Source: Platanthera guangdongensis (lineage: Eukaryota > Streptophyta > Magnoliopsida > Asparagales > Orchidaceae). Taken from it: a stretch of 64,000 bases of DNA. The DNA is taken from assembly GCA_039583875.1 (NCBI GenBank), contig CM077147.1:113766440-113830439 (forward strand). Direction: 5' to 3'. A program made the translations under genes and the position numbers. Shown piece by piece: positions 7,267-51,098 of the stretch (position 1 is the stretch's first letter; the number at the start of each line of letters is the position of its first letter). The notes beneath the pieces were generated by a model. The model saw only the letters and a program-made list of their open reading frames with translations. It searched no databases and was not told where the DNA came from.

Positions 7267-8204
7267 TGTGTCGACACCCAGAGGGAAAGTGTCGACACTT
7301 GAGAAAGCTTGTGTCGACATCCAGACAAGCAGTGTCGACACTTGGAGTCATTGTGTCGACACCTGGGATGCAGAGTCGACACCAGACAAAAAGTGTCGAC
7401 ACAAGGAGCTGTGTCGACACTCAGTGAAGAAGAATGCAGAGAAGCAGTGTCGACACTTAGCAGAAGTGTCGACACCTAGAAGAGCTGTGTCTACACCAGA
7501 AAGTGTCGACACTTGGAGTTGTGTCGACACTCAGCAAAATTCTGCAGAGACTAAGTGCAAGTGTCGACACCTAGCACAATGTGTCGACACTTAACCAGAA
7601 GAGTCAACATATTAAGTATGTGTCGACACTCAGCACAATGTGTCGACACACAACCAAAAGAGTCAACAAAGGAGATGTGTCGACACTCAACACAATGTGT
7701 CGACACACAACCAGAAGAGTCAACACTTGAAGAAAGTGTCGACACCCAGCACAATGTGTCGACACTCAGTTGAAGACTCAAAGAAAGTGTTGACACAAGG
7801 AGCTGTGTCGACACTTAGCAAAGAACAGAAATATCTACAAAAATATTCTAAGTACAAGTGTCGACACTAAGGGAATTTGTCGACACTCAGCTGAAGAATC
7901 TATATTGAAGACTTGTGTCGACACCAAGAAGCAGTGTCGACACTTGACAGTTTCAACACATGAAGATGTGTTGACACAAAGGAGATGTGTCGACACTTAG
8001 AAGAATTTAACAAGTTACAGAAGATCAAGTACTTGTGTCGACACTCAATTCCAAGTATCGACACCCGAATAAGAATCTGTGTCGAGACATCCAAGGAGTT
8101 GTGTCGACACCTTGTAGACTTGTGTCGACACTTACACAGCATGTGTCGACACTTGATCTATAAGTGTCGACACTTAAGAACAGAAAGTCTCGACACTATC
8201 TGAC
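7267..8204. repeat. S3 5' LTR palindrome cluster, about 28 perfect GTGTCGACAC
   Basis: I count about 28 perfect GTGTCGACAC and about nine near copies (GTGTTGACAC, GTGTCTACAC, GTATCGACAC and similar) in about 940 bp. Spacing is irregular, roughly 15-35 bp. Larger blocks recur, for example a palindrome pair joined by AGCACAAT or CACAAT. The same cluster is in the 3' LTR (about 15738-16675). Confidence 0.95.
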
Positions 8205-8297
8205 AGTTAGAGAATTTCAAGAATTGACTGGATGACATGACAGCTGCCGTTCCAGCCGGTCTACAGCACTTGTCAGAAATGTCAGAAGTCAGTTATG

Positions 8298-8314
8298 AAC
8301 CGGACCAGCCGGTT
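8298..8314. promoter_or_regulatory. AACCGG-N5-CCGGTT element upstream of the TATA box
   Basis: A hyphenated palindrome (AACCGG ACCAG CCGGTT) 15 bp upstream of the TATA box. The same element, with spacer CTGAT, is next to the TATA boxes of the S2 and S4 LTRs (6173-6187, 19177-19193), so it is conserved in place while the surrounding sequence differs. A role in promoter function is inferred. Confidence 0.55.
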
Positions 8315-8329
8315 ACCATGAAGAAGGCC

Positions 8330-8337
8330 TATAAATA
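8330..8337 (+). promoter_or_regulatory. S3 5' LTR TATA box
   Basis: TATAAATA within CCTATAAATAGGC, a strong plant TATA context. The same sequence is in the 3' LTR at 16801-16808, at the same offset of 1207 bp from the LTR start. Confidence 0.75.
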
Positions 8338-9278: not shown

Positions 9279-9290
9279 TGGTATCAAAGC
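9279..9290 (+). other. S3 primer binding site (iMet tRNA type)
   Basis: TGGTATCAAAGC, two bases after the LTR end. It matches the common plant initiator-Met primer site TGGTATCAGAGC except for one base. Confidence 0.8.
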
Positions 9291-9383
9291 GAGGTTCCTC
9301 AAAACAAGGACTAACAGTCTAAGGAGATCCTGTTTGGCAGAAACAGTTTAGGTCAGAAAACAGCTTCAAGAAAATCAAGAACC

Positions 9384-11423: not shown

Positions 11424-11441
11424 TTTGTTTTGCAGGTAAGC
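11421..11441 (+). promoter_or_regulatory. Splice-like junction at the gag stop / pol start
   Basis: Directly after the gag stop the sequence is TTTGTTTTGCAG followed by GTAAGC: a pyrimidine-rich tract with CAG, then a good 5' splice-site consensus, fused with no exon between them. The equivalent place in S4 (TTTGTTGCAG/GTGAGT, 26434-26455) and S2 (ATGTAG/GTGAGT) keeps the pattern; S6 keeps only the acceptor-like half. Whether it is used is unknown. Confidence 0.35.
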
Positions 11442-13136: not shown

Positions 13137-14596
13137 ATCAGTTCAAGAGATGCAAGGTCTGGGAATTGGTTCCAAAACCTAAAGACCACAATGTAATAGG
13201 AGTTAAGTGGATCTACAGAAATAAGATGGATGAACAAGGGGTCATCATAAAGAATAAAGCAAGACTGGTTGCAAAAGGATATAGGCAAGAAGAAGGTATT
13301 GATTTTGATCAAACCTTTGCCCCAGTAGCCAGACTGGAGGCCATAAGGATGTTCTTAGCCTATGCAACCTATCAAGGATTCAAGATTTACAAGATGGATG
13401 TCAAGTCAGCATTCTTAAATGGTAATCTTAAAGAAGAAGTCTATGTGGAGCAGCTTTCAGGTTTTGTTGATCCAACTCTACCTCATTATGTCTATAGACT
13501 TAGGAAAGCTTTATATGGGTTAAAGCAAGCCCCTAGGGCTTGGTATGAAATCCTATCTAGTTTCCTCATTGAGAACAAGTTCTCAAGGGGGAAAATAGAT
13601 AAGACTCTATTCCTTAGGGAATCTAGAGGCAAAGTCATACTTGTCCAAATATATGTAGATGACATTATATTTGGGTCTACTGAAAGCAGCCTTTGCAAAA
13701 AGTTTGCAAAACTTATGCAAGGTCAGTTTGAAATGAGTAGTATGGGAGAGCTGAAGTTTTTCTTGGGTCTCCAAGTTAAACAGACTGGAAGTGGTTTGTC
13801 CATTTATCAGTCCAAGTTCACCCTAGAACTCATAAGGAAGTATGGTATGGATTCATCCAGCACCATGAAGACTCCTATGGGGTCAAGTATGTCTCTTAGC
13901 AACGATGATGCAGGGAAACCTGTGGATGAAACCTTGTATAGAGGGATAGTTGGCTCCCTATTGTACTTAACTGCTAGTAGACCAGACATCATGTATGCTA
14001 CATGTGTTTGTGCCAGGTATCAAGCCTGCCCCAAAGAGTCTCACTTGATTGCAGTCAAGAGAATTTTGAGATATCTAAAGGGCACTCCCTATCTAGGCCT
14101 CTGGTACCCTAGGAATGGAGATTTTGATCTAACAGGTTATACAGATGCAGACTTTGCAGGATGCAAAGAGGATAGAAAGAGCACAACTGGAACCTGTCAA
14201 TTCCTAGGTGGAAGAATAATTTCATGGAGCAGCAAAAAGCAGACTAGTGTGGCTATCTCCACAGCTGAGTCAGAATATGTAGCTGTAGGAAGTTGCTGTG
14301 CTCAACTTCTATGGATTCAACATCAGCTAGTGGACTATGGATTTCAGGTAAGTAGAACTCCACTCTTCTGTGATTCTACAAGTGCTATTTCAATAGCTAA
14401 CAACCATGTATCTCATAGTAGGACAAAACATATTGAGATTAAATATCACTTTCTTAGGGAGCATGTAGAAAGAAATGATATTGCACTTGAATATGTTAAA
14501 ACTGATAATCAGATAGCTGACATGTTTAATAAGCCCTTAGAAGAAGCTAAGTTCAATAGATTCAAAATTGAACTAGGTATGTTAAACTTACACTAA
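13123..14596 (+). CDS. pol: S3 Pol, reverse transcriptase and RNase H part
   Basis: Continuation of pol, shifted by one base from the protease-integrase part; the first methionine in this frame is at 13166. RT motifs are complete: [22 protein letters not shown] and the catalytic YVDDIIFGS. RNase H motifs are [26 protein letters not shown] and the [11 protein letters not shown] region, all with catalytic acids present. It ends LGMLNLH, the usual copia ending, at 14594-14596. Apart from the frameshift at its beginning I see no lesion. Confidence 0.9.
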
Positions 14597-14629
14597 GTTT
14601 ACAGAATAGAAAATTGGCTAAGTAAAAAG

Positions 14630-14970
14630 GTGTCGACACATAGACAAGTCTATGTCGACACAGAATTAAAGTGTCGACACTTCAGGAAATAGGTGTCGAC
14701 ACATCTAGGATGTTGGTGTCGACACTTCAGAATGTTAGTGTCGACACATGTCGAGTAGGTGTCGACACATCCAATGTGGTGTCGACACTTAAGTTTTGCT
14801 CAGAATTTTCTAAGTAAAGACTCGACTATTCGTCGAGTAGAGTGGTGTCGACACATAAACATGTGTCGACACATAATATCTGTTGACTAAACTTGTGTCG
14901 ACACATGTGTGTCGAGACATTATAAGTCAGTGTCGACACTTATTGACAGTGTCGACACATTTTTAGTTAT
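14630..14970. repeat. S3 internal palindrome cluster between pol and the extra ORF
   Basis: About 12 perfect GTGTCGACAC copies in ~330 bp, starting ~35 bp after the pol stop. It also holds a relic of the S1-type palindrome (CTCGACTATTCGTCGAG, 14821-14837) and a run with TCTAAGTAAAG. It is the same motif family as the LTR array but outside the LTR. A few further copies lie between the TATA box and the extra ORF (15028, 15066). Confidence 0.9.
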
Positions 14971-15003
14971 CCATCCCGCCTGTTTGTCTTCAAATCAGAA
15001 AGG

Positions 15004-15011
15004 TATAAATA
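15004..15011 (+). promoter_or_regulatory. Candidate internal TATA box of S3
   Basis: GGTATAAATAGGG, after the internal palindrome cluster and ~100 bp before the ATG of the extra ORF (15110). S4 (22951-22958) and S2 (43648-43655) have the same TATA sequence at the same place. The extra ORF ATG lies in AAACCCTAATGG, a telo-box-like context often seen in plant 5' UTRs. A second promoter is inferred, not proven. Confidence 0.55.
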
Positions 15012-15109
15012 GGGTTCTGTCTTTGATTGTCGACACGCTTTCAAAGTTTCGAGACCAAAACTCTTGTGTCGACATTTCTCTTTTCTCAAGCCTAATTCTC
15101 CAAACCCTA

Positions 15110-15270
15110 ATGGCTCCCAAGCTCGAGGAAAACGTCAACGAAGGCTACGAACTTGTGCGCGGCGCATTCGACGATGGCGATCAAGATATCAAGTCAGTGG
15201 TTACCCTAGTCAGCGATTCAGGACTAGATTACTTGGTTTCAGAACCAACCAAGATATGGAAGATGTTGTA
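15110..15270 (+). pseudogene. S3 extra 3' ORF, truncated after ~53 codons
   Basis: It begins MAPKLEENVNEGYELV and runs to TKIWKML before a stop at 15268-15270. The first ~50 residues match the N-termini of the S2 and S4 extra ORFs (MAPKLED.NEGYELV...YLVSEPTKIW), which continue for about 850 codons more. Most of the ORF has thus been deleted here: the next ~320 bp is ordinary 3' UTR. The internal promoter-like region upstream is retained. The encoded stub has no recognisable function. Confidence 0.7.
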
Positions 15271-15593
15271 ATCACCCAAGTAAAGCACTATAGTCAGCAG
15301 TTGGAATAGACTTGAAGAATGTTGTAATCTTTTACATATAAACATTTTTGTAAATCATTGAAGATGTATTAGAAAAATGTTAGAACAATTTATGATTAAT
15401 ATAGTATAATTGTTCTGAAAGGTGTCTATTTTTTGTTTATTCTGGAATGATTAGTGTGTATACATGTGTGCATTATTACATGTTTAAGTTTACCCTGTTG
15501 AAATATACCTGCTTTACATCATTTTATAATTTTTAATTATGAGTGATGTATATCATTGACTAAGGGTTATGACTTCTCCAAATAGGGGGAGAT
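15271..15593 (+). other. S3 3' UTR and polypurine tract
   Basis: AT-rich noncoding sequence. The last bases AAATAGGGGGAGAT (15580-15593) are the polypurine tract that primes plus-strand synthesis, directly before the 3' LTR. No ORF of interest. Confidence 0.8.
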
Positions 15594-19940: not shown

Positions 19941-20204
19941 ATCTCTCCCTATTTGGAGAAGTCATAACCCTTAGTCAATGATATACACCATTCATAATAA
20001 ACACACAATATGATGAATAAGAATATTTCATGATAGGGTAACTTTTAAACAAAACATATATAAGATATCATCATAGAATAATAATGCTAATACAATGAGC
20101 ATCAATCATTATTTTGTTTCAACTTTCAAAAGTTTCTTTAACAATAGTTTACATAGATTTTTAACACTAAAGTTTACAAAGTTGTAAAATCTAGTAATTC
20201 TATC
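19941..20204 (-). other. S4 3' UTR and polypurine tract
   Basis: On the minus strand, AAATAGGGAGAGAT abuts the LTR. The remainder is AT-rich noncoding sequence, similar to that of S2 and S3. Confidence 0.7.
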
Positions 20205-22858
20205 CTAAGGCTGGTCTGGCTCCTTGATGACTATGTCTTTGCCTGATTGGATCTTGGCTTGTACTGGAGCATCTGGATCCTCAGCTGGCTTCTTGCCCTT
20301 CAGATCCTTCTTCTTTTGTTCTTCAGCCCTTATTCTCTGTCTTTCAAAATAATGAAAAGGCTTTGAGAAATATTTGCTAGGCTCCTGATTATTAGGAGGT
20401 AGCTTCCCAGCCTTTTCCTTTCATCTATATTACAGAATAGCTTCCTGTCTAGCTTCATGCTTTAGCCATTCTTGCTCTGTGTACCATTTGCCCCTGTCAT
20501 GGGTCTTGTCTTTTACAGCCTTCTAGGAAGTCAATATAATATTCCTTGAAGTAGGACTCCACTTCTCAAAATCAGGCTTCAACTTAGCCTGTTCTCTAAA
20601 TCTTTTCTTTGAAAGTTAAGCTTCTTGCTCCTTATTCATAGCTGCCTCTGACATTTCAACTTTCTCAATGATAACATTTTTATTACCCTCTGGAGGGATG
20701 TACATTGACTGTACTTCTTGATGAATCATTTCAAAATCTGCTGGAGGGTAAATGACCTGAGCAACTTCAGGTTGGTCACCTCCAAAATAAGAGGGTGTAT
20801 ACCTGACTCAGCTACATTATCATGATCACAGAGGGGTGGATATCCAAGTGTGGCTCTGATGCTATTAAATATCAAATTAGCATGATCTGAGCCAGCTTTG
20901 ACTAACACTCTCACCCCCTTTATGACTTCTCTTGCAATATGATCCCTGAGGTCTTCTTTCTGAAATCTGATTTGTTCATCAAGATAATTAACACCATCTT
21001 TATAGAATGACTTTAACTTTAGGAGCTGTGCAGAAATGGTCTTTTGATATTGCTCAATAGCTATTTGTACAGTAGCTAGGCCTTCCTGGAATTGCTTATC
21101 AAAAGCTACCTTGGCTTTAGCCCTTGCTTCACTCTGGGTAGTAGCAATATTCTTCATTTCTGTAACAATCACATTATGTGATTCTATCAGATTATCATTC
21201 ATTCTAAGTTGATTCTCTAGAAAATAGCCTTGTTTAATAGCCATATCATCAACTTGATTCTTTATTCCTTCTTGTTTTTTGCAATAAAGACAACAACATT
21301 GCCACCCTTGTGGAAACAATCAGTCATTTCCTTGTTATTCAGATTTACTTCAAATCTTATAGATTCGATATCTTGAGCCAAGGAGAATTGCAGATCTTTA
21401 TGGGTCTCATACAAATATTTCTCCATGGCTATCCTTTATTCATCCAATTTTACTTGCAAGTATATCAACAAAGAACTATAATCAGTTACTGGGGCAGGTT
21501 AAGGAGCAGTTTGTAAATCCCTTTTATAGGTTTGACTCCTTCTTTTAAAAACCATCAGCTTCCTCTTTTTGGCTTGAATTTCTGCTTCATCTTCAGAAGT
21601 TGAGGTACTGGCAATATCAACTCTTTCTTTAGGACTAGGAAGCAATTCCTGTGCAGTCCTAGGTAGCTCCCCCTGAGTCCCTTACTCCTCCTTCTCAGGG
21701 CTTACTTGCTTCCCCTCAATGTGAACTTGCTCCCCCTCAAATCTACTTTCTCCCCCTCAAAGTTACTTTGCTCCCCCTCAGTTCTTGCTTGTACTATATC
21801 TGGAAACAACTCCTCAAGGGTAAACTCGTGTTGAGTAGGGACTTAAGGCACCACCAACTCAGGAGCATTAGCAGCAGCAGATGTATCCTCCATGATAACA
21901 TCTTGTACTTGACTGGTTAGTTGAGTGGGCTGGTCAACATCAATCAAAGATTCAGTTAGTGTTTCATCCTTATCATTGAGAATTGATTGATTAACCTCTT
22001 GAATTACCTCAAGAATAGTTTGTGTAGCCATTTCACTTTCCAAGTGGGTTGGCTCTTCCTCAAGATGAGGCTCCCCCTGCACCTGAGCACTTTCAACAAT
22101 ATCTTGTGCAGGAGAATTTTCAGGAATCTCTGGCCTCTCTTCATCAGGCATGTCCTTTGTGAGGACTCTGTCCCATCTGGAGATGATCTGTATGTCCATT
22201 CTTCTCATATGGTTGATTTTTGAACCAGCAGTTTGTTCCATTACTTCAGGAATTGTTCTAGCCAAGTACAGACTCATAATTCTTCCCAGATTTGGTTTCT
22301 TAATACTTTCCTTAATCTTTTCAAAAACTACTACTGACCAATCAGTGTTTAGTCTGTAGATAATCCTGGTCATCAGGCTGAACATATAAGCAGAAATCCT
22401 ATCATGCCCCCTAGCTTGCTGAGGATGACTTTTCCAACCACTTCTGAAAGGAATTTGCCTTATAGATTCATCCCTTTTCTATTTATTGCTGATCCAATCT
22501 TCAAGGTGGGATCCAATCTACACCATTGAAGTGCTTCTCTAGTCTTTTATGAGGGAACTTCTTCTTCTTCTTGTGTTCTTGGGAGTTGAAGAGTTTTCCT
22601 TAAGCTCTTCAAAGTAATTTTAACTTTAGTTTCCTGAACTGTAGATTTGATCTTAAGTCCAGTAGAATCTAAAGTAGCTGCGCCATAGAAATTCAGAATT
22701 TCTTTCTTCCATATCTTTGTTGGTTAAGATACCAGAAATTCCAACCCATTTTCAGCAATTAGGGTTACTACTGGTTTAATTTCGGGTTTCGCATTATCAA
22801 AGGCATTGTGTACCAGCTCATAGCCTTCGTTGACATTATCTTCTAGCTTTGGCGCCAT
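20205..22858 (-). pseudogene. S4 extra 3' ORF (about 880 codons, broken)
   Basis: It starts at ATG 22858-22856 (MAPKLEDNVNEGYEL) and ends KEPDQP at 20205-20207. Clear blocks are a conserved N-terminal domain (to about 22150; FEKIKESIKKPNLGRI and INHMRRMDIQIISRW), a Glu/Gln-rich acidic middle (about 22140-21700) with five GGGGGAG-like purine tracts, a long coiled-coil-like part (21320-20830; ...YLDEQIRFQKEDLRDHI) and a basic C-terminus. Stops and frameshifts occur, for example near 22480-22540, 21840 and 20800. No signal peptide or membrane span is evident, so a retrovirus-type envelope is not supported. Homologous to the extra ORFs of S1, S2 and S3. It may belong to the loosely defined plant 'putative transposon protein' families; its role is unknown. 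Confidence 0.7.
21666..21780 (-). other. Cluster of polypurine tracts inside the S4 extra ORF
   Basis: On the minus strand, TGAGGGGGAGC or close variants occur about five times in 115 bp (21666-21675, 21709-21718, 21729-21740, 21749-21760, 21769-21780). Multiple polypurine tracts upstream of the 3' LTR are a known Sirevirus trait. Similar tracts occur in the S2 extra ORF near 31655, 31710 and 31770. Confidence 0.6.
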
Positions 22859-22950
22859 TAGGGTTGAGAGAAATCTTGAATTTAGAAGAGAGAATTTGTC
22901 GACATAGGGTTTTCTTCTCGAGAGGGTGTCAACAGACTATGTTGTTGACC

Positions 22951-22958
22951 TATTTATA
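22951..22958 (-). promoter_or_regulatory. Candidate internal TATA box of S4
   Basis: Minus strand GGTATAAATAGG, 93 bp upstream of the extra ORF ATG and downstream of the internal palindromes (22985-23262). Same arrangement as in S2 and S3. Confidence 0.55.
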
Positions 22959-22984
22959 CCTTTGTAAATAATGAAGGTGAAAAT

Positions 22985-23262
22985 GCGCGTCATAATTCTC
23001 TTAATGTATCGAAACTGTTGAAAAGTGTCGACACAGACTTCTAATGTCTCGACATCGGTTAATTGTTAGTGTCGACACAACTTCTGGATGTGTTGACACA
23101 ACTTCTCTGAAGAGTCAACACCTATTCTCTAGATACGTCGACACCACTTCTCAGGAGTGTCGACACCAATTTTCTAGATGTGTCGACACCACTTTCCTGG
23201 AATGTCGACACCAACTACTATGTGTCGACACAGACAACTTCTTGTTTCGACACAATTTTACT
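22985..23262. repeat. S4 internal palindrome cluster
   Basis: Five perfect GTGTCGACAC copies (for example near 23025, 23070, 23157, 23180, 23221) plus decayed ones (GTGTTGACAC, ACGTCGACAC, ATGTCGACAC). It lies between the pol stop (23280-23282) and the internal TATA box. Confidence 0.88.
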
Positions 23263-23279
23263 TAGCCAAATTTGTTAAA

Positions 23280-26200
23280 CTAATTTATGTTCAACATTCC
23301 TAATTCAATTTTGAAATTGTTGAATTTAGTTTCATCTAAAGGCTTAGTAAACATGTCAGCTAGTTGTAAATCAGCACCAACAAATTCTAAAGAGATATCT
23401 TCTTTCTCTACATGATCTCTAAGAAAATGTATCTTATTTCTATATACTTTGTTCTACTATGAGAAATAGGATTATGAGTAATAGAAATATCACTAATAGA
23501 ATCACATAATAATGGAGTTCTACTTACCTGAATACCATAATCTACTAGCTGATGCTGCATCCATAATAGTTGTGCACAGTAACTTCCAGTAGCAACATAC
23601 TCAGACTCAGCAGTGGAAATTGCCACACTGGTCTGCTTCTTACAGCTCCAAGACACCAGTCTTCCTCCTAGAAATTGACAGGTGCCTGTAGTGCTTTTCC
23701 TATCTAATTTGCAACCTGCAAAGTCTGCATCTAAATAACCCATTAGTTGAAAATCTCTATTCCTAGGATACCAAAGTCCTAGATTAGGTGTGCCCTTAAG
23801 ATATCTCAAAATCCTTTTAACAGCAGTAAGATGAGATTCTTTAGGGCAGGATTGGTACCTAGCACAGACACATGTAGCATACATGATATCTGGTCTACTA
23901 GAAGTTAGATATAGGAGGGATCCAACTATTCCTCTATACAAAGTTTCATCTACATGTTTCCCTGCATCATCTTTGCTAAGAGATACACTTGTCCCCATTG
24001 GAGTTCTCATGGTAGTGGATGACTCCATACCATACTTCTTAATTAACTCCTAGGTGAACTTAGACTGGGATATGGACAAGACATCATCAATCTGTCTTAC
24101 TTGGAGACCCAAGAAGAACTTAAGTTCTCCCATACTGCTCATTTCAAATTTCCCTTGCATAAGTTTTGCAAACTTTCTACAAATGTTACTTTCAGTAGAA
24201 CCAAATATTATGTCATCAACATATATTTGGACTAGAATTCTCTTTCCTTTGGATTCCCTAAGGAATAGAGTCTTGTCTATTTTCCCCCTTGAGAATTTGT
24301 TCTCAATGAGGAAATTTAACAGGGTTTCATACCAAGCCCTTGGGGCTTGTTTCAACCCATAAAAAGCTTTCCTAAGTCTATAGAAATAAGTAGGATTGAG
24401 TGGATCAGCAAAACCTGAGGGCTGTTCTACATAGACCTCCTCTTTTAAGTCTCCATTTAAGAAAGCAGACTTAACATCCATCTGGAACACTTTGAAGCCT
24501 TGATATGTTGCATAGGCTAGAAATAGCCTGATAACTTCCAGTCTTGCCACAGGGGAAAAAGTCTGATCAAAGTCTATGCCCTCCTCCTGTCTGTATCCTT
24601 TGGCAAAGAGTCTTGCCTTATTCTTCACTATGATCCCACTCTCATCAAGCTTGTTTCTATATATCCACTTTGTCCCTATGACATTGTGGCCCTTTGGTTT
24701 TGGAACCAAATCCCAGACCTTGTACCTTCTGAATTGATTTAACTTCTCATGCATGACATCAATCCAGTGTGGGTCCTTAATAGCTTTTTCAAATCTCTTG
24801 GGTTCCACTTGAGATAAGAAGCTAGAGCAAAGAACTGTGTTCAAGTTCCTGCTCCTTGTTTGTACTCCTTGTCTTGGATCACCAATGATCTAGTGTGCAG
24901 GATGATCCTTCAACTGTCTAACTACTGGAGATAATCTATCAGCAGTTTGACCTTCTCCAATCACTTCATTTTGCTGCTCCTCATGGTCTTCATCAGCATC
25001 TTGAGTGTCTTGTACTCCCCCTGGACATCAACTATCATTTTCCTCATCCTGCTTTGCAGTTGGAACTTCTTTGATAGTAAGCTGGTCCATCTTCTGCTGT
25101 ATACCTGTGGAGCTACAAGAACTACTTGGCAACTCACTGTTAATAAGTCTAGTTTCATCAAAGATGACATGAAATGACTCTTCTACAACTTGAGTAGCCA
25201 AATTATAGACCATATAAGCCTTACTATTGTTGTTGTACCCAACAAATATCCCATCTTGGGAATTGGTAGCAAACTTAGTTAGGTGAGATTTGCCATTGTT
25301 AAGTACATAACATTTACAACCAAAGATCCTAAAATATGATAAATTTGGTTTTCTGCCTTTCATAATCTCATAGGGTGTTTTTTTGTGGCTTTTGGTGATG
25401 GAAGCCCTATTGAGCACATGGCATGCAGTATTCACTGCCTCAGCCCAGAAATATTCTGGGAGAGAAGTATCACTCAATAGTGTTCTTCCAGCCTCAATCA
25501 ATGTCCTATTCTTTCTCTCAGCAATGCCATTTTGCTGAGGTGTTCTAGGTGAGGAGAATTCCTGAAGAATCCCAAATTCTTCATACAGCCTTGTCATACT
25601 TTCAGATTGGAATTCAGTTCCATGGTCACTTCTGATTTTGACCACTGAACTATCGATTTCATTCTGAATTTGTTTGACAAAATTGTAGAAGACCTTTAGG
25701 GTTTCAGATTTCTGTCTTAGAAAGAATACCCATGAGAATCTAGAATAGTCATTTACAACCACAAAAGTGTAGACCTTCATACCTAGGCGTTGAACTGACA
25801 TAGGACCAAATAAGTCCATATGCAAAAGGTATAAGCACCTCACTGAGTTTTTGGTTTCAAGGCTATTAAAGGAGGATCTAGTCTGCTTGCCTTTTTGACA
25901 AGCTGAACATATTCCATCCTCATAACACTTAACTTGAGTACCATTCCTCACTAACTCTTTACTAAAGAGTTGGCCAATTATCTTGTAGTTAAGATGGGCT
26001 AGCCTCTTGTGCCATTTGACACAATGAGAGGCTTTCTCATCAGCCACAAGACAGATAGGAGAATTTTTATTCTCATACTCAAAATTTAGGCAGTATATAT
26101 TTCTTTTCCTATATCCAGTCAATATGACTTTTTGATCACTTGACCTATTGATATGACACCCATTCTTGACAAATGAAATGTCATATCCTAGATCACTCAG

Positions 26201-26452
26201 CTGGCTTATGCTTATTAGGTTATGTTTCAAACCCTTTACATAGGCTACTTGAGTGATTGTAATTGAGTTGTTAGAAATGTTACCAAAACCTTTGATGATT
26301 CCCTTTTCAGAACCACCAAAGATTACTTTAGGACCATTCAGCATAGCTGAGTAGTCCTTCAACAATCCCCTTGTTCCAGTCATGTGCCTGGAACATCCAC
26401 TGTCCAAGTACCATATAGGCGCATGACAACTTGGACTCACCTGCAACAAAGG
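23280..26452 (-). pseudogene. pol: S4 Pol (PR-IN-RT-RH), broken
   Basis: Protease [10 protein letters not shown], integrase WHKRLAHLN / [11 protein letters not shown] / RSDHGTEFQ / [26 protein letters not shown] and YVDDIIFGS, RNase [27 protein letters not shown]. All lie in one frame with gag (minus strand). In-frame stops interrupt it near 25028, 24890 and 24050, and a frameshift near 23408 moves the last ~45 codons out of frame; the LGMLN ending is still readable to 23280. In RNase H, GYLDADF has Leu where S3 has Thr, but the Asp is kept. Catalytic residues otherwise look complete, so loss of function came from the stops. Confidence 0.88.
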
Positions 26453-28444: not shown

Positions 28445-28510
28445 TTTCTTGAACTTATTTCTGCCTTATAGATCTCACTAAGACTGTTAAGTCTATCTTT
28501 GAGGAACCTC

Positions 28511-28522
28511 CCTCTGATACCA
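28511..28522 (-). other. S4 primer binding site
   Basis: TGGTATCAGAGG on the minus strand, two bases after the 5' LTR end. It matches the plant iMet primer site at 11 of 12 bases. Confidence 0.8.
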
Positions 28523-28524
28523 CT

Positions 28525-30262
28525 TGAAAGAATTAGTTCCTAAACACCTAGAGGGGGGGGTGAATAGGTGTAATTCCTTTTTCTTCTAAGACAAAATATC
28601 TATTCAGTTACTTAATCAATAACAGCTAATTTAACAGCTAACATAGCACAGAATTCACAGAATCACACAATCACAGATTGCACATAGTTTTTATAGTGGT
28701 TCCCCAAGGTCTGGGTACATCCACTTTCCCTCTTTGCCTATGTAGCAGTGTGCTAGATTAGGCCTAACTTTTTTCCTTCACCTCAGATCCGCAGATCTTA
28801 CAGCTCAGAACCCAAACAAGGCTCCTACAACTCAGAGTGAGTCCACACTCCTACAGCTCAGGCAATCTACCCTACCTCAGCCTTCAACAAGGCCTACAAC
28901 TCAGAGATAACAATCTCCTACAGCTCAGGCTCACAGCCCTACCTCAGCCTTCAACAAGGCCTACCACTCAGAGATCTAAATCTCCTACCACTCAGCCTTT
29001 ATAAATCAGGCTTACAGCTCAGATCTTAAAAAGATCCTACAGAAACTAGATTTAACAATGTATTTTACCACCACCCTGGTAGAGAGAGAAAGGATGGATG
29101 ACTTCTTGATAAGTTCTTGGAAGAATCTGATGGCAGAGAACAACCACTCTTAGCTTTCTTCAAAGCTTCTTGAATCTGAACTCAGTAGGGTTGATCTCCT
29201 TTGAAGTTGATCTTCAATCAGCTTCTTTCTTGAAATTCAGATCTCAATCTGAATCCTTCTTGGCAGACTGGTTCATAATCTGCACTTGAGGGACTTGTTG
29301 ATATAAGTCCCTTTCTTCACTTCAATAGATGGAGCTCTCTCTCTCCAACTTCTTTGATCTTCTGACAAAAATCTTCTTTTGTTTTTATGTATTCTGTATC
29401 AGAATACTCTTTTATCTATTAGTATATCTGTTCTCTCTTTATGTTGAAGGAGAATGCCTTTATATAGACTTTCTCCATGGTAACCGGCTGATCCGGTTTC
29501 TAACAAACTTCTGACAGCTCTGACAGTTGCAGTAGACTGGTTGGTAATGGCAGCTGTCAAGTCATCCAGTCACTTTTTGAAACTCTGTCTCTGTCAGCAA
29601 AGTGTCGAGACTGAACTTCATCATGTGTCGACACAAGTAGACTAAGTGTCGACACAAGCCTTGGTGGTGTCGACATAGCTCCTTTGGTGTTGACACTACT
29701 TCTCGACACAGCATCTGTAGAATGCGTCGACACAAATTCTGTGTGTCGACACAATCACTTCTTCTCTTTAACTTTGTTGAAACTCTAATGTGTGTCGACA
29801 CAAGTCCTGTGTGTCGACACAGTTTATGTCGAAAAAGTCTTATATGTGTCGACATTGCCTCTGTGTGTCGACATAGTTGATGTCGACAATGCTTCTCTGT
29901 GTGTCGACACTTCCTTTGTTATATCGACACAGTTTATGTCGACTAAGCTTTTCTGTATGTCGACACTGCCTCTGTCATGTTGACACAGTTTCTTCAGGTG
30001 TCGAAACAGCCTTTTCAAGTGTCGACACAATTGTCTCCTAGTGTCGGCACAGCTTTTCTCAAGTGTCGACACAAGCCTTCATAAGTGTCGACACAACTTC
30101 TTCTGGTGTCGACTCATGGACTTAGAAACTTTTTCCTGCATTCCTGCACTTACTTAACATGCACATATAAACTCAAAACAACATCAAATACACCTTGATG
30201 CATATCATTGAGTAAGGTGAAGCTTCTTCAAATCTCGTACACATTTTCCAATGTACCCAACA
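28525..30262 (-). repeat. S4 5' LTR
   Basis: 1738 bp, with the same ends and order of blocks as 18219-19940: TATA (minus) at 29459-29466, the AACCGG-CTGAT-CCGGTT element just to its right at about 29481-29498, palindromes at 29600-30115, and the G-tract hairpin at about 28545-28570. Confidence 0.92.
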
Positions 30263-30267
30263 CTTTT

Positions 30268-32362
30268 CTTAGAAAGTTGAGCTTCTTGCTCTCTTTTCAA
30301 GGCTGCTTCAGACATCTCAACTTTCTCAATAACCACATTCTGAACCTCCTGTGGAGGACTATACATTTGTTGAACAACAGCTTGAATTCCTTCAAAGTCA
30401 GCAGGTGGATAAATGATTTGAGCCACTTCCTGCTGAGCCCCTTCATTGTAAGCAGCTTGAATGCCTGACTCAGCTCTGTTGTCATCATCATACAGGGGTG
30501 GATATCCAAGAGTGGCTCTGATAGTATTAGTTATCAATTTGACATATTCAGAGCCTGCATTGACTAACACTCTCTCCCCCTTTATGACTTCTTGTTCAAC
30601 ATGGTCTCTTAGATCATCCTTTTGAAATCTTATCTGTTCAGCGAGATAATTTGTACCTTCTTTGTAGAATGACCTAAATTTCTGCAACTGATCAGAAATT
30701 ACCTTCTGAGAGGCCTGGATAGCAGTGTTAACAACAGTCAAATTTGCTTGGAATTGTTTGTCAAACTCTGACTTTTCCTGAACCATGTGGTCTGTGACAG
30801 CAGTGGCTTGATTTTTCAGTTCAGTAACAATCACATTATGAGATTCCGTAAGATTGTCATTCATTATTATTTGATTTTCCAAAACATACCCTTGTTTGAC
30901 TGCTATATTATCTATCTGTGTTTTTGCCTCTTGTTGTTGTTTGGCTAGGTATACTATATCATTACCTCCCTTATGGAAGCAATCCGTCATCTCCTTTTTA
31001 TGCTGATTTACCTCAAATCTGATTGATTTGATGTCTTGGGCCAAAGTAAATTGGAGGTCTTTGTGACTCTCATCCACATATCTCTCTAGGGCTACTCTTT
31101 GCTCATCTATTTTAACCTGCAGTGCCACCAACAGTGAACTGAAGTCAACTGCTGGGGTTGGAGTTTGTGGAACAGCTTGCAAGGCTTTCTTATAGCCAGA
31201 GCTCCTATTCTTGAGTTCCACAAGCTTTCTCTTTTTGGCCCTAGAGGCTACTTCATCTTCTGAAGTTTCTGAGGATCTTGCTATGTCCACAGTGTCTTTT
31301 GGACTAGAGGGCAACTCCGTCTCAGTTCTTGGCTGCTCCCCGTTAGTCCTTTCATCTTGGATGTCAGGAAATAACTCTTCTAGAGTTACCTCTTGGTTTA
31401 TTTGAACAGGAGGAATTGCTTGCTCTTTCTTAGTAAATTCTCCTCCTTCAAAGTCAACAGTGTCTTCCATGGTAATGTCCTGATCTGGGACATGGTCTTG
31501 GATATTTTTATCAATATCAGTCTGGAGCACATCCAATGCATCATTCTCAGTATCCACAACAGTTTGATTGATGTCTTGAACAATCTCAAGTATTGATTGA
31601 GTTGCTGCTTCACTGTCCAATGCAGCTGTGTTGATAGGTGGCTCTTGTTCATGAGCTCCCCCTAAAGGTAATGCCTCTTGTTGAGCTGAAGCTAGAGAAA
31701 TCTCATTGGCTCCCCCTTGATGAGGCACTTCCTGGACTTGATCCAGTTGTATGTTGCTTTCTGTAATCTGCTCCCCCTGCACCAGACTATCATCTACATT
31801 CTCAGGAGCAGGTGATTTTCTAGCATACTCAGGTCTTTCCTCATTTGAGCTGTATCTGTTTTGTTTGTTTCTGTGGTGTAGAAACATCTTTGGTCAGGAC
31901 CCTTTCCCATCTGGATAGTATCCTTAAATCCATTCTTCTCATATGGTTTATCTTAGATCCTGCTGTGTGATTCATCACTTCAGGAATATTCACAGCCAGA
32001 TGTATACTTAGAATTCTGCCTAGATTAGGTTTCTTTAAACTTTCCTTGATCTTTTCAAAGATCACAATAGACTAGTTGGTTTTGACCTTCAAGATAACTT
32101 TGGTCATTAGATTGAACATATAGGTAGATATCCTTTCATGGCCTCCTGGTTTGGACAGAATTACTTTTCCTATAATTTCAGAAAGAAATTTTCCCTGGGA
32201 GTTCATTCCCTTTCTGTGCATAGATGATCCAATCTTGGTGGTGGGATCCAGTCCACACCATTGGAGAGCTTGTCTGGTCATGGAAGATACAACTTCATCT
32301 TCTTCTTGAACCCTAGGCAGGTGTAGTGTCTTCCTCAAACTCTTCAGGGTGAGTTTGACCTT
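30268..32362 (-). pseudogene. S2 extra 3' ORF, central segment
   Basis: Minus-strand reading begins at the S5 insertion (32362): KVKLTLKSLRKTLHLPR, then FEKIKESLKKPNLGRI and INHMRRMDLRILSRW. A 560-codon open stretch follows (31887-30205) with a Glu/Gln-rich middle, the GGA/GEQ-coding purine tracts, and a long coiled-coil-like region (about 31110-30560; VNQHKKEMTDCFHKG, YLAEQIRFQKDDLRDHV). It ends REQEAQLSKK at the S4 insertion, where the open frame runs on by chance into the S4 LTR. The N-terminus is at 43321-43546 and the C-terminus at 17819-18218. One stop or frameshift near 32066 breaks the N-terminal domain. Best preserved copy of the coiled-coil half. Confidence 0.75.
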
Positions 32363-32975
32363 AGTTCTGAAAGATAATAGTTGCCAACCTAAATCACCTA
32401 GAGGGGGGTGAATAGGTGAGTCGCGCGTCTTTTTGCGGAATAAAAAAATCTCAACCAAAGCACAAAACTATCTACCAAACAAGCAAACACATACAAGGCA
32501 AGATTTATAGTGGTTCCCAAATCTTGGGTACATCCACTTTCCCTCACCGATCTAGCAATATACTAGACTCGGCTACTCCACTATCTCGGATTGAAAAACA
32601 ATCCTAACCTCGGAATAAGGTTCCTACAAACTCGATCCACAAACAGATCTACACTCGGAAGACAAAACTTCCTACAATCTCGGAGTTGAACAGTCCTACA
32701 CTCGGAGAAATCTTCTCCTACAATAATGAAATACAACAGTACAAAAATACAAACAGTGAAATATCTGGTTCAGATCTGCAACAGAAAATCAGAAAATCCT
32801 TCTTCTAGGCGTGCGGCTTTATCAGAATATTGAAGAAGAATTTCGGCAAGATTAGATCTGGAACTTCTCGACTTTACACGATCGAAAGAGTAGATGAATC
32901 GTTGAGCGAATATCTTGATCTGTAGAGTCTTCTTAATCTGAATCCTCTGAAAAGAAGAAACCCTAGCTGGTCGGA

Positions 32976-32998
32976 AATTAGCGGCGGCGGCGGCGGCG
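32976..32998. repeat. GGC trinucleotide run in the S5 LTR leader
   Basis: GCGGCGGCGGCGGCGGCG close to GAAACCCTAGC (a telo-box-like sequence). The same leader with a shorter run is in S7 (about 62143-62156). Confidence 0.7.
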
Positions 32999-33137
32999 AG
33001 TTTCCGGATCTTACAGAGAGAGAGAGGAAACAGAATTCTTTTGGAAAGAGACGGCTGCAAAACTTAGAGTAATTTTCTTTTTTTTGAAAAACTTAGGGTT
33101 TGTCGTTTTGACAAAACCTTTTATAGGAGACAAGAAG

Positions 33138-34641: not shown

Positions 34642-34945
34642 ATCTCCCCCTATTTGAAGAAGCCTAAACCCTACAAGCTAAGGTGAATAAAGCGTATGGG
34701 AATGAAAATCATAACCTTGAAATTTAGCTGAGAGAGATATTCATTACCAATACCAATTTCTTGAGAGCAAACTTGGAGCCACCTTAGCCTTAGCCGATAG
34801 GGTAATCTCCCCCTTTTCGGCTTCTGCAAATCTGGGTCTGTAGCATTTGACCCCTTGCTCCCCCTCAGTTCTCACACTTGTGCTCACAATGGAGTTCCTG
34901 GCAGAGGCTCCCCCTAGAGGCATGATCCTGGAGCTTCTGTAGTCT
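34642..34945 (-). other. S6 3' UTR with multiple polypurine tracts
   Basis: On the minus strand, GGGGGAG-like tracts occur at about 34643-34650 (adjoining the LTR), 34807-34815, 34859-34867 and 34909-34916: four in 300 bp. This is the Sirevirus multi-tract pattern. No ORF is supported. Confidence 0.65.
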
Positions 34946-43000: not shown

Positions 43001-43320
43001 GGAAAAATTTTTCAGACAGATTTTCTTCTTTTAAGGGAAATCGGCATCAAGTCTTTTCACATAGTCCTAGAGCTTGAATATGAAGTGTATCCCAATAGAG
43101 AGGCAACACATAAGTCAACACTTTGGAACACACAATGAGGGATTACATTGTATGGTCCTGTGTTTGATGACCCATTGTAGACTGACATTGGTCTACACTT
43201 TCCATTGGAATCCTGCAAACACATAACTCAAACCAAGCATCAAATACAACTTAATTCATCTTAGTTCAAGGGTGACTTCATCAAATCTAGGTTAGTGTGG
43301 ATACAATACACAACAAGTTC

Positions 43321-43546
43321 CTTGAACGGATGACTTAATTTTCATGCCCGTTGAATCCAGTGTTGCTGTTGTGTAGAATTCAAGAATCTCCTTCTTTCAA
43401 ATCTTGGTAGGTTCTGAGACCAAGTATTTTAAGCCATTTTCTATGATTAGGGTAATCATGGCTTTGATGTCTCTAGATCCACTCACAAAGGCATCACGAA
43501 CCAGTTCATAGCCTTCGTTGATGTTGTCTTCCAACTTTGGCGCCAT
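43321..43546 (-). pseudogene. S2 extra 3' ORF, N-terminal segment
   Basis: It starts at ATG 43546-43544 (MAPKLEDNINEGYELVRDAF), continues to YLVSEPTKI and then out of the first frame, and reaches the S5 insertion at 43316-43320. The start aligns with those of S3 and S4. It lies about 100 bp downstream of a TATA box (43648-43655). Confidence 0.7.
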
Positions 43547-43647
43547 GAGGGACGAGAGAGAGAGGGAAAAGAGATGAAGGTCTGTCGACACAAAGGATTA
43601 GGTCTCGAGAATGTTGAGAGCGTAGTCGACAGGCGTTTATTTCCACC

Positions 43648-43655
43648 TATTTATA
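43648..43655 (-). promoter_or_regulatory. Candidate internal TATA box of S2
   Basis: Minus strand CATATAAATAGG, between the internal palindromes and the extra ORF ATG. Confidence 0.5.
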
Positions 43656-43699: not shown

Positions 43700-44010
43700 A
43701 TTGTGTCGACACTGTTGCGATTGTGTCGACACAATCTACTAAAGTCTCGACAGAGAATTACTATTCTATGTGTCGACACTAATTGCGATGTGTCGACACA
43801 ACTAAGCTTAAGAGCTTATACTAATTTCTGCGTGTCGACACAGACGATTGTATGCGTCGACACCAACATTTATGTATCAAGATAGCTACGTGTCGACACC
43901 AAATTCTGAGTGTCGACACAATCTCCTGGATGTGTCGACAAAATTTTTCTTATGTGTTGACACCATCTACGAAGTGTCGACACCTTTGTCTTTAAGTGTC
44001 GACACACATT
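43700..44010. repeat. S2 internal palindrome cluster
   Basis: About 10 perfect GTGTCGACAC copies and several decayed ones, between the pol stop (44034-44036) and the internal TATA box. Confidence 0.88.
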
Positions 44011-44033: not shown

Positions 44034-47000
44034 TATTCTAATTTCAGCATGCCTAATTAAATTTTAAAATAATTGAATTTAGTTTCATCCAGAGGTTTGG
44101 TGAACATATCAGCAATTTGAAAATTTGTATTGACAAATTCTAAACTTATATCTTCCTTTTTAACATGATCTATAAGAAAATGAAATCTTATTTCTATATG
44201 CTTTATTCTGCTATGTGAAACAGGATTTCTAGCAATAGAAATGACACTAGTAGAATCACAAAATCATGGAGTTCTACTTACCTGGATTCCATAATTTTCA
44301 AGTTGATGTTGAATCCATAATAACTGAGCACAACAGTTGCCTGCAGCAACATATTCAGACTCAGCAGTGAAAATAGCCACACTTGTCTGCTTTTTACTGC
44401 TCCAAGACACCAATCTTCCTCCTAAAAACTAATATGTGCCAGTTGTACTTTTCCTGTCTTCTTTACATCCTGCAAAGTCTGCATCTGAATACCCAGTCAG
44501 TAGAAAATCTCTATTCTTAGGGTAACAAAGGCCAAGATTTGGTGTTCCCTTAAGATATATCTAAATTCTTTTGACTGTAGTATAATGAGACTCTTTAGGG
44601 CAGGCTTGATACCTAGCACAGACACATGTAGCATACATGATGTCTGGTCTACTAGCAGTTAAGTATAAAAGGGAGCCAATTATCCCTCTATATAAAGACT
44701 CATCTACAGTTTTCCCTACATCATCTTTGCCTATAGGCATACTTGACCCCATTGGAGTTCTCATGACGGAGGCTGACTCCATACCATATTTCTTAATCAA
44801 TTCCTTGGTGAACTTAGACTGAGATATGGACAAGCCATCATCAGTCTGTCTAACTTGGAGTCCCAAGAAGAATTTCAGCTCACCCATACTGCTTATCTCA
44901 AACTTCCCTTGCATAAGTTTGACAAACTTTCTACAAAGGTTGTTTTCTGTTGATCCAAAGATAATGTCATCAACATATATCTGAACTAGGATCATCTTGC
45001 ACTTTGATTCCCTAAGGAATAGAGTTTTGTCTATTTTACCCCTTGAGAATTTGTTCTCAATGAGGAATATAAACATGGTTTCATACCAAGCCCTAGGGGC
45101 TTGTTTCAAACCATATAGTGCATTCTTAAGCCTATAAACATACTTAGGATAGAGAGAATCTACAAAACCTGAGGGTTGTTCAACATAGACTTCCTCTTTT
45201 AAGTCACCATTTAAAAATGCTGACTTGACATCCATTTGGAATACCTTGAACCCTTGGTATGCTCCATAGGCAAGGAATAGCCTTATTGCTTCCAACCTTT
45301 CCACTGGAGAAAATGTCTGATCAAAGTCTATTCCCTCTTCCTGCCTGTAGCCTTTTGCTACCAGTCTTGCTTTGTTTTTGACTATGATGCCATTTTCATG
45401 TAGCTTGTTCCTGTAGATCCACTTAGTCCCTATGATATTATGATACTTTGGTTTAGGAACCAGCTCCCATACTTTACATCTTCTGAATTGATTCAACTCC
45501 TCCTGCATTGCATCAATCTAGTTTGGGTCTTGTATGGCTTCTTCAAATTTCTTGGGTTCCATTTGGGACAGGAAACTTGAGCAAAGAACTGTGTTCATCT
45601 TCCTACTCCTTGTCTGGATATCATGTCTTGGATCGCCAATAATTTGGTGTGCTGGATGATCCTTTATATGCCTTGTTACTAGAGGAAATCCATCTACACC
45701 TTGATTTTATCCAATCTCTTCAACATGCTGTACTTCATTGTTCTCTTCATCAGCTTGAGGGTCTTGTACTCCCCCTGGACACCAGCCATTATTTTGTTCA
45801 TCCTGCCTTGCAGGTTGGTCTTCATTAATGGTTAGCTTGTCCATCTTTTCCTTCAAACTTATAGGGCTACAAGATACACTAGACTGCTCACAGTTGATTA
45901 GTTCAGTTTCATCAAAGACTATATGAACAGATTCTTCTACAACTTGAGTAGTCAAGTTATAGACCCTGTAAGCTATACTGTTGTTGCTGTACCCAACAAA
46001 TGTCCCTTCTTGGGATTTGGCAGCAAACTTAGTTAAATAAGACTTTCCATTATTAAATACATAACACTTGCTACCAAAGATCCTAAAATAGGATATGTTT
46101 GGTTTTCTGCTTTTCATAATCTCATAGGGTGTCTTTTTATGACTTTTAGTGATGGATGCTCTATTGAGAACATGACATGCAGTGTTTACTACGTCAGCCC
46201 AGAAATATTCTGGGAGAGAAGTGTCACTTAGTAGTGTTCTACTAGCCTCAATAAGAGTCCTATTCTTTCTTTCAGCAATACCATTTTGCTGAGGAGTTCT
46301 AAGTGAGGAGAACTCTTGATGAATCCCTAATTTTTCACAAAATCTTGTCATGCATTCAGACTGAAATTCAGTCTCATTGTCACTTTTGATTTTGACCACT
46401 GAACTGTTAAGTTCATTCTGAATTTGTCTAACAAAATTGTGGAAGACAGTAGGGGTTTCAGATTTCTGCCTCGGAAAGAAAACCCAAGTAAATCTAGAAT
46501 ATCATCCACAACTACAAGTGTATAGACTTTCCTACCTAGACTATGAACTGGCATAGGACCAAATAGATCCTTATACAGGAGGTACAAACACTTCACAAAA
46601 TCTTTGGTTTCATGTCCAGGAAAAGAGGTCTTGGTCTGTTTGCCCTTTTGGCAAGCTGAACATACACCCTCTTTTATGCACTTGAACTGAGGACCATTCC
46701 TCACTAACTCCATGCTATAGAGTTGGCCTATAGTCTTATAGTTAAGGTGAGCTAGCCTCTTGTGCCATTTGACACAATGAGATGCTTTCTCATCTGCAAC
46801 TAAACATATAAGATAATTTTATTCTCACAATCAAAACTGAGATAATAAACATTTCCTTTTATATATCCTGACAAGATGACCTCTTGATCACTGGTCCTTC
46901 TAATCTGACACCCATTATTAATAAATGAAGTGTCATAACCAAGATCACTTAGTTGGCTTGTGCTTATTAGGTTGTGTTTCAAACCTTTTACATAAGCCAC

Positions 47001-49525: not shown

Positions 49526-51098
49526 TGAAAGAATTGGTTTCAAGATGTCCTAAACACCTAGAGGGGGGGGGGGGTGAATAGGTTCAATTCTTTTTCTTAA
49601 GGCAGATAATCTTTTCACTGTTAGATCACAGATTATTCAGCACAACACAGAATAAACAACACAGCAACACAGAAGACACACAGTTTTATAGTGGTTCCCC
49701 AAGTGATGGGTGCATCCACTTTTCCCCTTCGTCTATCTAGCATTGTACTAGATTCAGCCTAACTTCCTTCATCCTTCTCAGATTCGCAGATCTTGCAACT
49801 CAGAACCTTGAAAGGTCCCTATAGCTCAGACTTCAGCAAGTACTACAACTCAGATCCTCCTAGAGAATCCTACCTCAGAGTGAGTCCACACTCCTACACC
49901 TCAGGCAATTAAGCCCTACCTCAGGATCTTCCTAGGTCTACAACTCAGAGAACTTAATCTCCTACCTCAGGCACTCTGCCCTACCTCAGCCTTTATAAAT
50001 TTAGGATAACAACTTAGAGGAATAATCCTCCTACACTCAGATCTGTAAAAGATCCTACAAAAATTGAAAATAAAGAGAATAATTCCTTTACCCAGATAAA
50101 GAGAGAAAGGGTGAAGGCTTCTTGACCAGTTCTTGATAGATCTGACCACCCTAGAATCAACCTGTCTTAGCTTCTTCAAAGTTTCTTGAATCTGAACAAA
50201 GTAAGGTTGATCTCCTTGAAGTTGGAGATGATCCTAAATCCAGCTTCTTCTTAATCAGATGTGGTTCTGATTTCTTCTTGCATACTATTCAGGATCTGCC
50301 CTCTCTGGATGACTTGTCGATTTCTGGATGAAGACTTCTCTCCTTGTTGTTAATTCTTCATTACTTTGATTTGATAATAGAACATGTCTTTATATAGGCT
50401 CCATCTGAGATTACTGGCTGATCTGGTTCCTAATGGCCTTCTGATAGATCTGACAGAAAGAGCAACTGTGTTGATCATGACAGTTGTCAAGTCTCCAGTC
50501 ATTATATCTGATACTTCAATGAACTTCAGCTTAGCAGCAATATGTCGAGACAATACTGCAGATATGTCGACACAAATAGTTCATGTGTCGACACAATCCT
50601 TGGTGCTGTCAACACAGCTTGCATAATGTCGACACAACACTTCTCTATCTCCTTGACATAGCTTATGCAGAATGTGTCGACACAAGTACTGTGTGTCGAC
50701 ACAATCACTTCTTGTCTTAACATAGTTGACTTTAACAAAAATTCTGGTGTGTGTCGACACAAGTCCTGTGTGTCGACAGAATCTCTGTGTGTCAACATAA
50801 GTCATGTGTGTCGACATAAACTGTCTCCCGGTGTCGACACAGTCTTTGTCGACAGAATCTCTGTGTGTTGACACAAGTCCTGTGTGTCGACACAAACTGG
50901 CTCCTGGTGTCGACATAACCTTTCCCATGTGTCGACACAATGCTTCTCAAGTGTCGATACTTGTACTTAGAAAATTTTCTTTCATTTTCTTAACCTGCAC
51001 ATGGAAACTCAACACCACATCAAATACACCTTGATGAATATCATTGAGTTAGGTGAGGCTTCTCCAAATCTAGTACACATATTCCAATGTACCCAACA
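49526..51098 (-). repeat. S2 5' LTR
   Basis: 1573 bp, edges TGAAAGAATTGG and GTACCCAACA. It is the same as 5274-6927 except that the palindrome cluster (50541-50960) is about 80 bp shorter and lacks the block found at about 6540-6620 of the 3' LTR. Confidence 0.9.

Follow-up and report, generated by a model that had tools for sequence, protein, structure and literature searches.

Evidence for a candidate internal promoter in front of the accessory gene of three Sirevirus-type Copia elements in the orchid Platanthera guangdongensis

We analyzed a 64,000-nucleotide stretch of the Platanthera guangdongensis genome (contig CM077147.1, positions 113,766,440 to 113,830,439 of the forward strand), referred to here as the window. 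Comparing this 64-kb window with itself revealed three related Copia elements, S2, S3, and S4. By their sequence features these are elements of Sirevirus type with a sense-strand extra open reading frame (ORF) between pol and the 3' long terminal repeat (LTR). The interval in front of this ORF contains a palindrome array followed by a TATA sequence, and we consider a promoter dedicated to the extra ORF to be the best-supported reading of it, and a probable one. What is established is the anatomy of the interval, the fact that three diverged elements conserve it, the CpG map, and the constraint on the encoded protein.

A conserved block between pol and the extra ORF

The same parts follow one another in S2, S3, and S4: the end of pol, an array of the palindrome GTGTCGACAC, the octamer TATAAATA, a palindrome core, a CT-rich leader, and ATGGC. 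A first-pass annotation of this DNA had proposed the order of cluster, TATA, and ATG together with a similar distance from TATA to ATG, and the coordinates of all three elements confirmed both. The first T of the TATA lies 106 (S3), 100 (S4), and 109 nt (S2) from the A of the ATG. The same annotation described the TATA as identical among the elements. This is correct for TATAAATA and the GG that follows it and incorrect for the two preceding bases, since the 12-mer is CATATAAATAGG in S2 and GGTATAAATAGG in the other two. From the last palindrome-like site of the array to TATAAATA we counted 45 bp in S3 and 47 bp in both S4 and S2; in S4 this last site is degenerate, and the last exact copy is 66 bp before the TATA. 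When the first T of the TATA is base 1, base 26 opens GTCGAC in S3, GTTGAC in S4, and GTCGAC in S2. Transcription from TATA promoters usually starts near this region. Palindrome-like copies are present between the TATA and the ATG as well. Spacing within the arrays is mostly 18-24 bp, with spacings of 30 bp or less making up 12 of 13 in S3, 11 of 12 in S4, and 9 of 10 in S2. Pyrimidines account for about 70%, 66%, and 82% of the last 50 nt before the ATG in S3, S4, and S2, respectively.

We observed 119 exact copies of GTGTCGACAC in the window, against 0.03 expected: 93 in the LTRs of S2-S4, 26 in the three intervals (S3, 12; S4, 5; S2, 9), and none elsewhere. The elements are well diverged, with synonymous divergence (dS) of about 0.9-1.4 between them and three-way identity at 43 of 118 four-fold degenerate pol sites. 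Three-way identity is 8/8 in TATAAATA and 10/12 in the surrounding 12-mer; it is 52/134 in the nonpalindrome columns of the array and 18/42 in the 42 columns before the TATA. The leader is identical at 36/86 columns overall, at 14/18 palindrome columns, and at 14/56 other columns. To avoid circularity, we defined the palindromes in one element and scored identity between the other two. Palindrome columns were identical at 121/136, 77/80, and 101/110 positions, versus 176/287, 230/396, and 179/299 elsewhere in the interval.

The concentration of CpGs marks the TATA site by a largely separate property. In S2, S3, and S4, the gag and pol parts have observed-to-expected CpG ratios of 0.00-0.05; the S3 gag-pol region has 1 CpG in 5244 bp. 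The ratio is 0.53 in S5, a relative that lacks the extra ORF, and 0.58 in the element at 52209-60700. No CGN arginine codon was present in the counted S3 gag and reverse transcriptase frames, and the density of CAG plus CTG in gag-pol was not depleted. In S3, 34 of the 36 CpGs between the LTRs fall in a stretch that runs from the array through the leader into the start of the extra ORF; the corresponding counts are 21 of 30 in S4 and 31 of 38 in the contiguous part of S2. These CpG-rich stretches are 667 (S3), 724 (S4), and 745 bp (S2) long. Palindromes contain 14/19, 11/14, and 15/20 of the array CpGs of the three elements, and the leader and ORF start add more.

A dedicated internal promoter is favored because the TATA is conserved at near-constant spacing with a palindrome core in the start-site register, because the leader is otherwise neutral-like, because CpGs are concentrated at the site, and because the 5' leaders contain no splice donor matching the consensus at 8/9 positions or better. 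Under this reading, the extra gene would have its own RNA polymerase II promoter, in which an activator that may also serve the LTR would bind the CpG-containing palindrome array. A TATA about 46 bp downstream of the array would direct transcription to start about 30 bp after it, probably on or beside the further palindrome core. The transcript would open with a CT-rich leader of about 65-80 nt before the ATGGC start and would be a separate short mRNA encoding an accessory protein that is plausibly nuclear. The promoter proposed in the first-pass annotation is retained in this form; what that annotation said about copying the LTR promoter layout, about splicing, and about novelty needs correction.

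The block had been said to copy the layout of the LTR promoter. Both sites do have palindromes, then a TATA, then a leader, but the internal site is not a sequence copy, and the spacing and the LTR TATA differ. The latter is CCTATAAATAGG in S3 and TATATAAA in S4 and S2, and the LTR array stops 133-145 bp before it, versus 45-47 bp for the internal array. Each of the six LTRs has 18-39 palindrome-like sites (two mismatches or fewer) clustered upstream of the TATA, and the S2 and S4 LTRs have isolated two-mismatch sites downstream. When the palindromes were masked, one 13-bp match between an interval and an LTR was left at E<=1 (E 0.045). The idea that the candidate internal promoter arose from the LTR promoter by recent duplication is unsupported. 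A single AACCGG...CCGGTT pair just upstream of the LTR TATA (S3 8298-8314, S4 29482-29498; approximate) resembles the classical Sirevirus motif.

The extra ORF evolved under protein-level constraint, with a ratio of nonsynonymous to synonymous rates (dN/dS) of 0.20 over 499 codons between S2 and S4. We scored 7993, 43, and 7990 candidates in three protein searches, and homologues among the matches listed came from Platanthera orchids only (4, 6, and 14 proteins; 16 in all). The N-terminus MAPKLE(E/D)N(V/I)NEGYELV is common to S2, S3, S4, and Platanthera proteins, and 8 of the 16 proteins hold it. Basic stretches of the KKRK type are nuclear-signal motifs. The examined homologues carry KKRK or KRRK, and the protein is plausibly nuclear. 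No transmembrane segment was found in three homologues (highest 19-residue Kyte-Doolittle means, 1.28, 1.27, and 1.06), and we therefore do not call the product an envelope. Four Platanthera homologues matched PF20167 (Transposase_32) with 20.8-31.4 bits (E 2.1e-7 to 3.9e-4), below the gathering cutoff of 45 bits, and the window's own extra-ORF pieces gave no match to it; the protein may be at most a distant relative of that family. As regards a coiled coil, residues 373-596 of P0008 form long helices only in a very low-confidence model (predicted local distance difference test score [pLDDT] 35). Queries with the pol and extra-ORF proteins found no relatives among viral contigs. A DNA search with the palindrome-pair pattern returned 1 viral contig and 26 prokaryotic stretches, which we judged by their titles to be chance matches.

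Splicing, silencing, and chance as alternatives

Several points weigh against a dedicated promoter. CpG nearly stops at the LTR TATA (2 in the 937 bp of S3 R-U5) and continues past the internal TATA, so that the CpG pattern of the two sites is not the same. The palindromes themselves steered part of the array alignment, and the TATA was selected after it had been sighted in all three elements. The comparison covers three elements, all from a single window and all with a broken extra ORF. The splice-donor consensus is CAG/GTAAGT, and the window has three copies of exactly this sequence, CAGGTAAGT, one per element in S2, S3, and S4 at an identical codon position in pol. A second donor-like site lies just after the gag frame (CAGGTAAGC at 11433 in S3, CAGGTGAGT at 26443 in S4, and TAGGTGAGT at 47195 in S2). 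Finally, P0006, P0007, and P0011, three of the eight gene models with the shared N-terminus, run on from the pol residue at which the window has CAGGTAAGT.

These sites raise the possibility that expression of the extra ORF depends on splicing of an LTR-initiated RNA, from a donor near the RNase H end of pol or after gag to an acceptor near or in the leader or start codon. We regard this as unlikely, but it survives better than the other alternatives. At the CAGGTAAGT position S5, without the extra ORF, has CAGTTCAAG. In the three models, ...YGIQ is joined either to the leader or to the codon that follows MAPK (in P0011 the next V leaves the exact base open), and the Platanthera gene sets were made with MAKER from combined de novo, homology, and RNA-seq evidence (PMC9023349). 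However, no two of the three models share an acceptor, as would be expected of a predictor choosing whatever holds the frame open. Conservation at the donor is not exceptional alone, since the compared pol segment has three runs of six identical codons and the donor lies in one of them. The leader has no evident coding constraint, given the low identity of its nonpalindrome columns, and its frame has stops in S4 and S2 and none in S3; on the same grounds, a translated leader is unsupported. Splicing also leaves the TATA, the palindrome core at base 26, and the CpG concentration unexplained. Because a donor at the pol end keeps gag-pol upstream, it would yield a Pol-accessory fusion, an outcome like stop-codon suppression in SIRE1, and no separate short mRNA. 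The post-gag site follows a T-rich stretch and AG, and may also be read as an acceptor.

Two related routes were rejected. The 5' leaders of S2, S3, and S4 contain no donor scoring 8/9 or better, which speaks against splicing from there. Readthrough of the pol stop is precluded by the interval of about 430-520 bp, which has stops in all three frames in all three elements. The first-pass annotation had favored a separate mRNA instead of splicing. This opposition may not hold, since each of the three elements keeps CAG/GTAAGT in pol, and the corresponding residue is the junction in three Platanthera gene models. The shared donor-like sites leave room for spliced RNAs, and promoter and splicing could both operate.

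In favor of the promoter, P0005, P0008, P0009, and P0010 (4/8) start at the corresponding methionine; P0013 has another upstream exon before the N-terminus. P0007, from P. zijinensis, also favors it: its segment GINRS...MAPK matches the S4 leader with 70% identity over 57 residues (E 2.7e-18 in a comparison with the window). Its GINR is the translation of GGTATAAATAGG, and the TATA is thus very probably present in the P. zijinensis copy behind P0007, a comparison made from the protein sequence alone. By eye, the second exon of P0011 seems to open where the TATA sequence ends, in another frame.

An extension of the internal promoter is a two-promoter circuit, in which a nuclear accessory protein made from the internal promoter would bind the shared palindromes and determine how active or how methylated the two promoters are. 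In this reading the element would have shed its CpGs elsewhere, with the two promoters left as essentially its sole CpG islands. Four elements without the ENV-like gene keep their LTR palindromes (PMC2829016), which speaks for a host factor and is why we consider the circuit doubtful.

It is also quite improbable that the array, rather than being part of a promoter, is a protein-binding or silencing platform with an incidental TATA-like sequence beside it; such a platform could, for example, attract methylation and small RNAs or act as a signal for packaging or integration. The central CpG makes the palindromes possible methylation targets, and in maize, LTR palindromes of Sireviruses have reportedly been tied to small RNAs. 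However, such a platform does not account for TATAAATA at 8/8 or for its position, which is nearly the same relative to the array and the same relative to the palindrome core that follows. CpGs are kept at the array and are scarce in the rest of the body, which is the opposite of what long-lasting methylation would leave. Moreover, Bousios et al. found clusters upstream of the ENV-like gene in 9/9 elements that carry both the motif and ENV, and no clusters in the linkers of the four that lack ENV (PMC2829016). Chance, by which a TATA-like string would have arisen in an A+T-rich spacer beside an array that merely spread from the LTR, is very improbable: TATAAATA is common enough in the window (9 matches versus 1.76 expected), yet with a sense-strand probability per interval of 0.003-0.011 (first-order Markov; 0.0048 in S3, 0.0030 in S4, and 0.0106 in S2) it occurs in 3/3 intervals at identical alignment columns, and 119/119 exact palindromes are confined to the LTRs and these intervals.

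Elements and other features of the window

The coordinates are collected in Table 1. The match pattern of the self-comparison suggests that S2 hosts nested S3, S4, and another stretch and that its extra ORF was thereby split. The middle piece assigned to S2 holds most of a 562-codon open frame (30205-31893), set apart by the nested insertions. Flanking repeats are visible at S3 (gtttc) and S4 (ctttt). S3 has the Copia domain order of integrase before reverse transcriptase (rve in 11424-13133, RVT_2 in 13124-14593). A single stop codon at 11421-11423 parts its gag frame from the pol start in the same frame, which would fit decay and readthrough alike. S3 is the youngest copy by LTR identity; it retains the candidate promoter block, and nearly all of its extra ORF (15110-15593) is lost.

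Table 1. Positions of the elements, promoter-like blocks, extra-ORF pieces, and donor-like sites in the window
Feature	Element	Position	Strand	Remark
Whole element	S3	7123-17746	+	LTRs 98.7% identical
Whole element	S4	about 18219-30262	-	LTRs 93.3% identical
LTRs	S2	49526-51098 and 5274-6927	-	LTRs 88.5% identical
Whole element	S5	33138-42073		Relative without extra ORF and without GTGTCGACAC motif
5' LTR promoter	S3	7268..8337	+	Array 7268-8196, TATA 8330-8337
5' LTR promoter	S4	29459..30124	-	Array 29602-30115, TATATAAA 29466-29459
5' LTR promoter	S2	50389..50960	-	Array 50542-50960, TATATAAA 50396-50389
gag-pol, nearly CpG-free	S3	9350-14596
gag-pol, nearly CpG-free	S4	23283-28440
gag-pol, nearly CpG-free	S2	44061-49450
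Internal palindrome array	S3	14630..14958	+	12 exact GTGTCGACAC and near copies, upstream of TATA
Internal TATAAATA box	S3	15004..15011	+
12-mer GGTATAAATAGG	S3	15002-15013	+	ATG 15110-15112
Palindrome-like copy, expected start-site register	S3	15027..15036	+	GTCGAC from base 26
Internal palindrome array	S4	23006..23253	-	5 exact, rest degenerate, upstream of TATA
Internal TATAAATA box	S4	22951..22958	-
12-mer GGTATAAATAGG	S4	22960-22949	-	ATG 22858-22856
Degenerate palindrome, register as in S3	S4	22926..22935	-	Core GTTGAC
Internal palindrome array	S2	43703..44005	-	9 exact, upstream of TATA
Internal TATAAATA box	S2	43648..43655	-
12-mer CATATAAATAGG	S2	43657-43646	-	ATG 43546-43544
GTCGAC core, register as in S3	S2	43625..43630	-	Flanks differ, no full palindrome copy
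Extra ORF	S3	15110..15271	+	53 codons then stop, 3' part missing
Extra-ORF region from ATG	S4	20131..22858	-	Broken by stops and frameshifts, 3' limit approximate
Extra ORF, 5' piece	S2	43316..43546	-	Cut by inserted element
Extra ORF, middle piece	S2	30263..32371	-	Probable assignment, from self-comparison match pattern
Splice-donor-like CAGGTAAGT in pol	S3	14345..14353	+
Splice-donor-like CAGGTAAGT in pol	S4	23522..23530	-
Splice-donor-like CAGGTAAGT in pol	S2	44276..44284	-

A probable solo LTR at 61050-62772 has a different palindrome, TACTCGAGTA, in 14 copies. It appears from the self-comparison to have a nested counterpart at about 32372-33137 and 42074-43316, with S5 inside this counterpart. 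The LTRs of another Copia element, at 52209-53364 and 59247-60700, carry a 24-bp tandem array rich in TCGAC/GTCGA inverted pairs.

Relation to known Sireviruses

We compared the junction of the 5' LTR with the internal region, which in Sireviruses reads CA / ATTGG or AGTGG / TATCAGAGC. S5 matches it exactly, S3 (TATCAAAGC) and S4 (TATCAGAGG) have one mismatch each, and the old copy S2 (CA/AGTGC/TATCAGAGT) has two. A further feature that defines Sirevirus membership was present in 8/8 LTRs of S2, S3, S4, and S5. The polypurine tract (PPT) octamer AGGGGGAG starts 10 bp before the 3' LTR, exact in S3 and S5 and with one base changed at the equal position in S4 and S2. Extra PPT copies number three in the S5 linker and none in S3, and they occur in the extra-ORF region of S4 and S2. 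One of these, a PPT-like AGGGGGAG at 22071-22078 inside the S4 extra ORF, encodes part of QGE (the only one whose frame was checked by hand). With further octamers in the S4 and S2 extra-ORF regions, spare PPTs may hide in coding sequence.

Bousios et al. (2010) described palindromic motifs, termed RMs, in the LTRs of 13 Sireviruses and also in the linker of nine with an ENV-like gene; 77/79 linker copies were upstream of that gene, and CpG islands lay at the LTR and the linker (PMC2829016). They favored an internal promoter, an idea they trace to 2002, with none conclusively identified (PMC2829016). The first-pass annotation knew of no described internal promoter of this design, and this overlooked earlier work: palindromes upstream of ENV had been reported and an internal promoter argued (PMC2829016). 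S2-S4 resemble those Sireviruses in being Copia elements with high-copy palindromes ahead of the LTR TATA, a second palindrome cluster separating pol from the 3' gene (upstream of the ENV-like position in 3/3 of ours), CpG concentration at both places, the junction of LTR and primer-binding site, a poly-C integrase signal, and the position of the PPT. They differ in the motif, since GTGTCGACAC lacks the CGG-CCG core typical of RMs and present in 12/13 of those listed; the Vitis motif CGGTCGACCG shares GTCGAC (PMC2829016). They differ also in that the TATA, the palindrome core in the start register, and the leader can be named, where PMC2829016 identified none conclusively, and apparently in a nearly CpG-free gag-pol.

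Other retroelements also carry a gene in this position. In maize, Grande gene23 likewise sits between pol and the 3' LTR as an accessory gene; it has a promoter of its own, and its product is nuclear, both of which are proposed for the extra ORF as well (Gomez-Orte et al. 2013, as described in PMC7264820 and cited in PMC11963269), but Grande is Ty3/gypsy and the gene antisense (PMC7264820), whereas S2-S4 are Ty1/copia and theirs is sense. Soybean SIRE1 is a Sirevirus with a sense gene after pol, for which stop-codon suppression was reported (as cited in PMC2829016). Barley Bagy-2 also has a sense gene after pol but is a gypsy element (PMC2829016) with a reported spliced ENV-like message (PMC7264820). 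In the open-access literature, our search found no mapped TATA-level internal promoter in a Sirevirus; among the matches listed for GTGTCGACAC itself, none was on plant elements by title. The layout is known in kind, and what is new is the TATA-level core and the CpG map.

An internal promoter for the gene that follows pol in Sireviruses was proposed in 2002 and supported in 2010 (PMC2829016), and the candidate is now narrowed to a TATA and a start predicted to within a few bases, in elements whose synonymous sites are strongly diverged. The CpG map, with its nearly CpG-free gag-pol and CpG-dense candidate promoters, may aid in finding such promoters in other elements.

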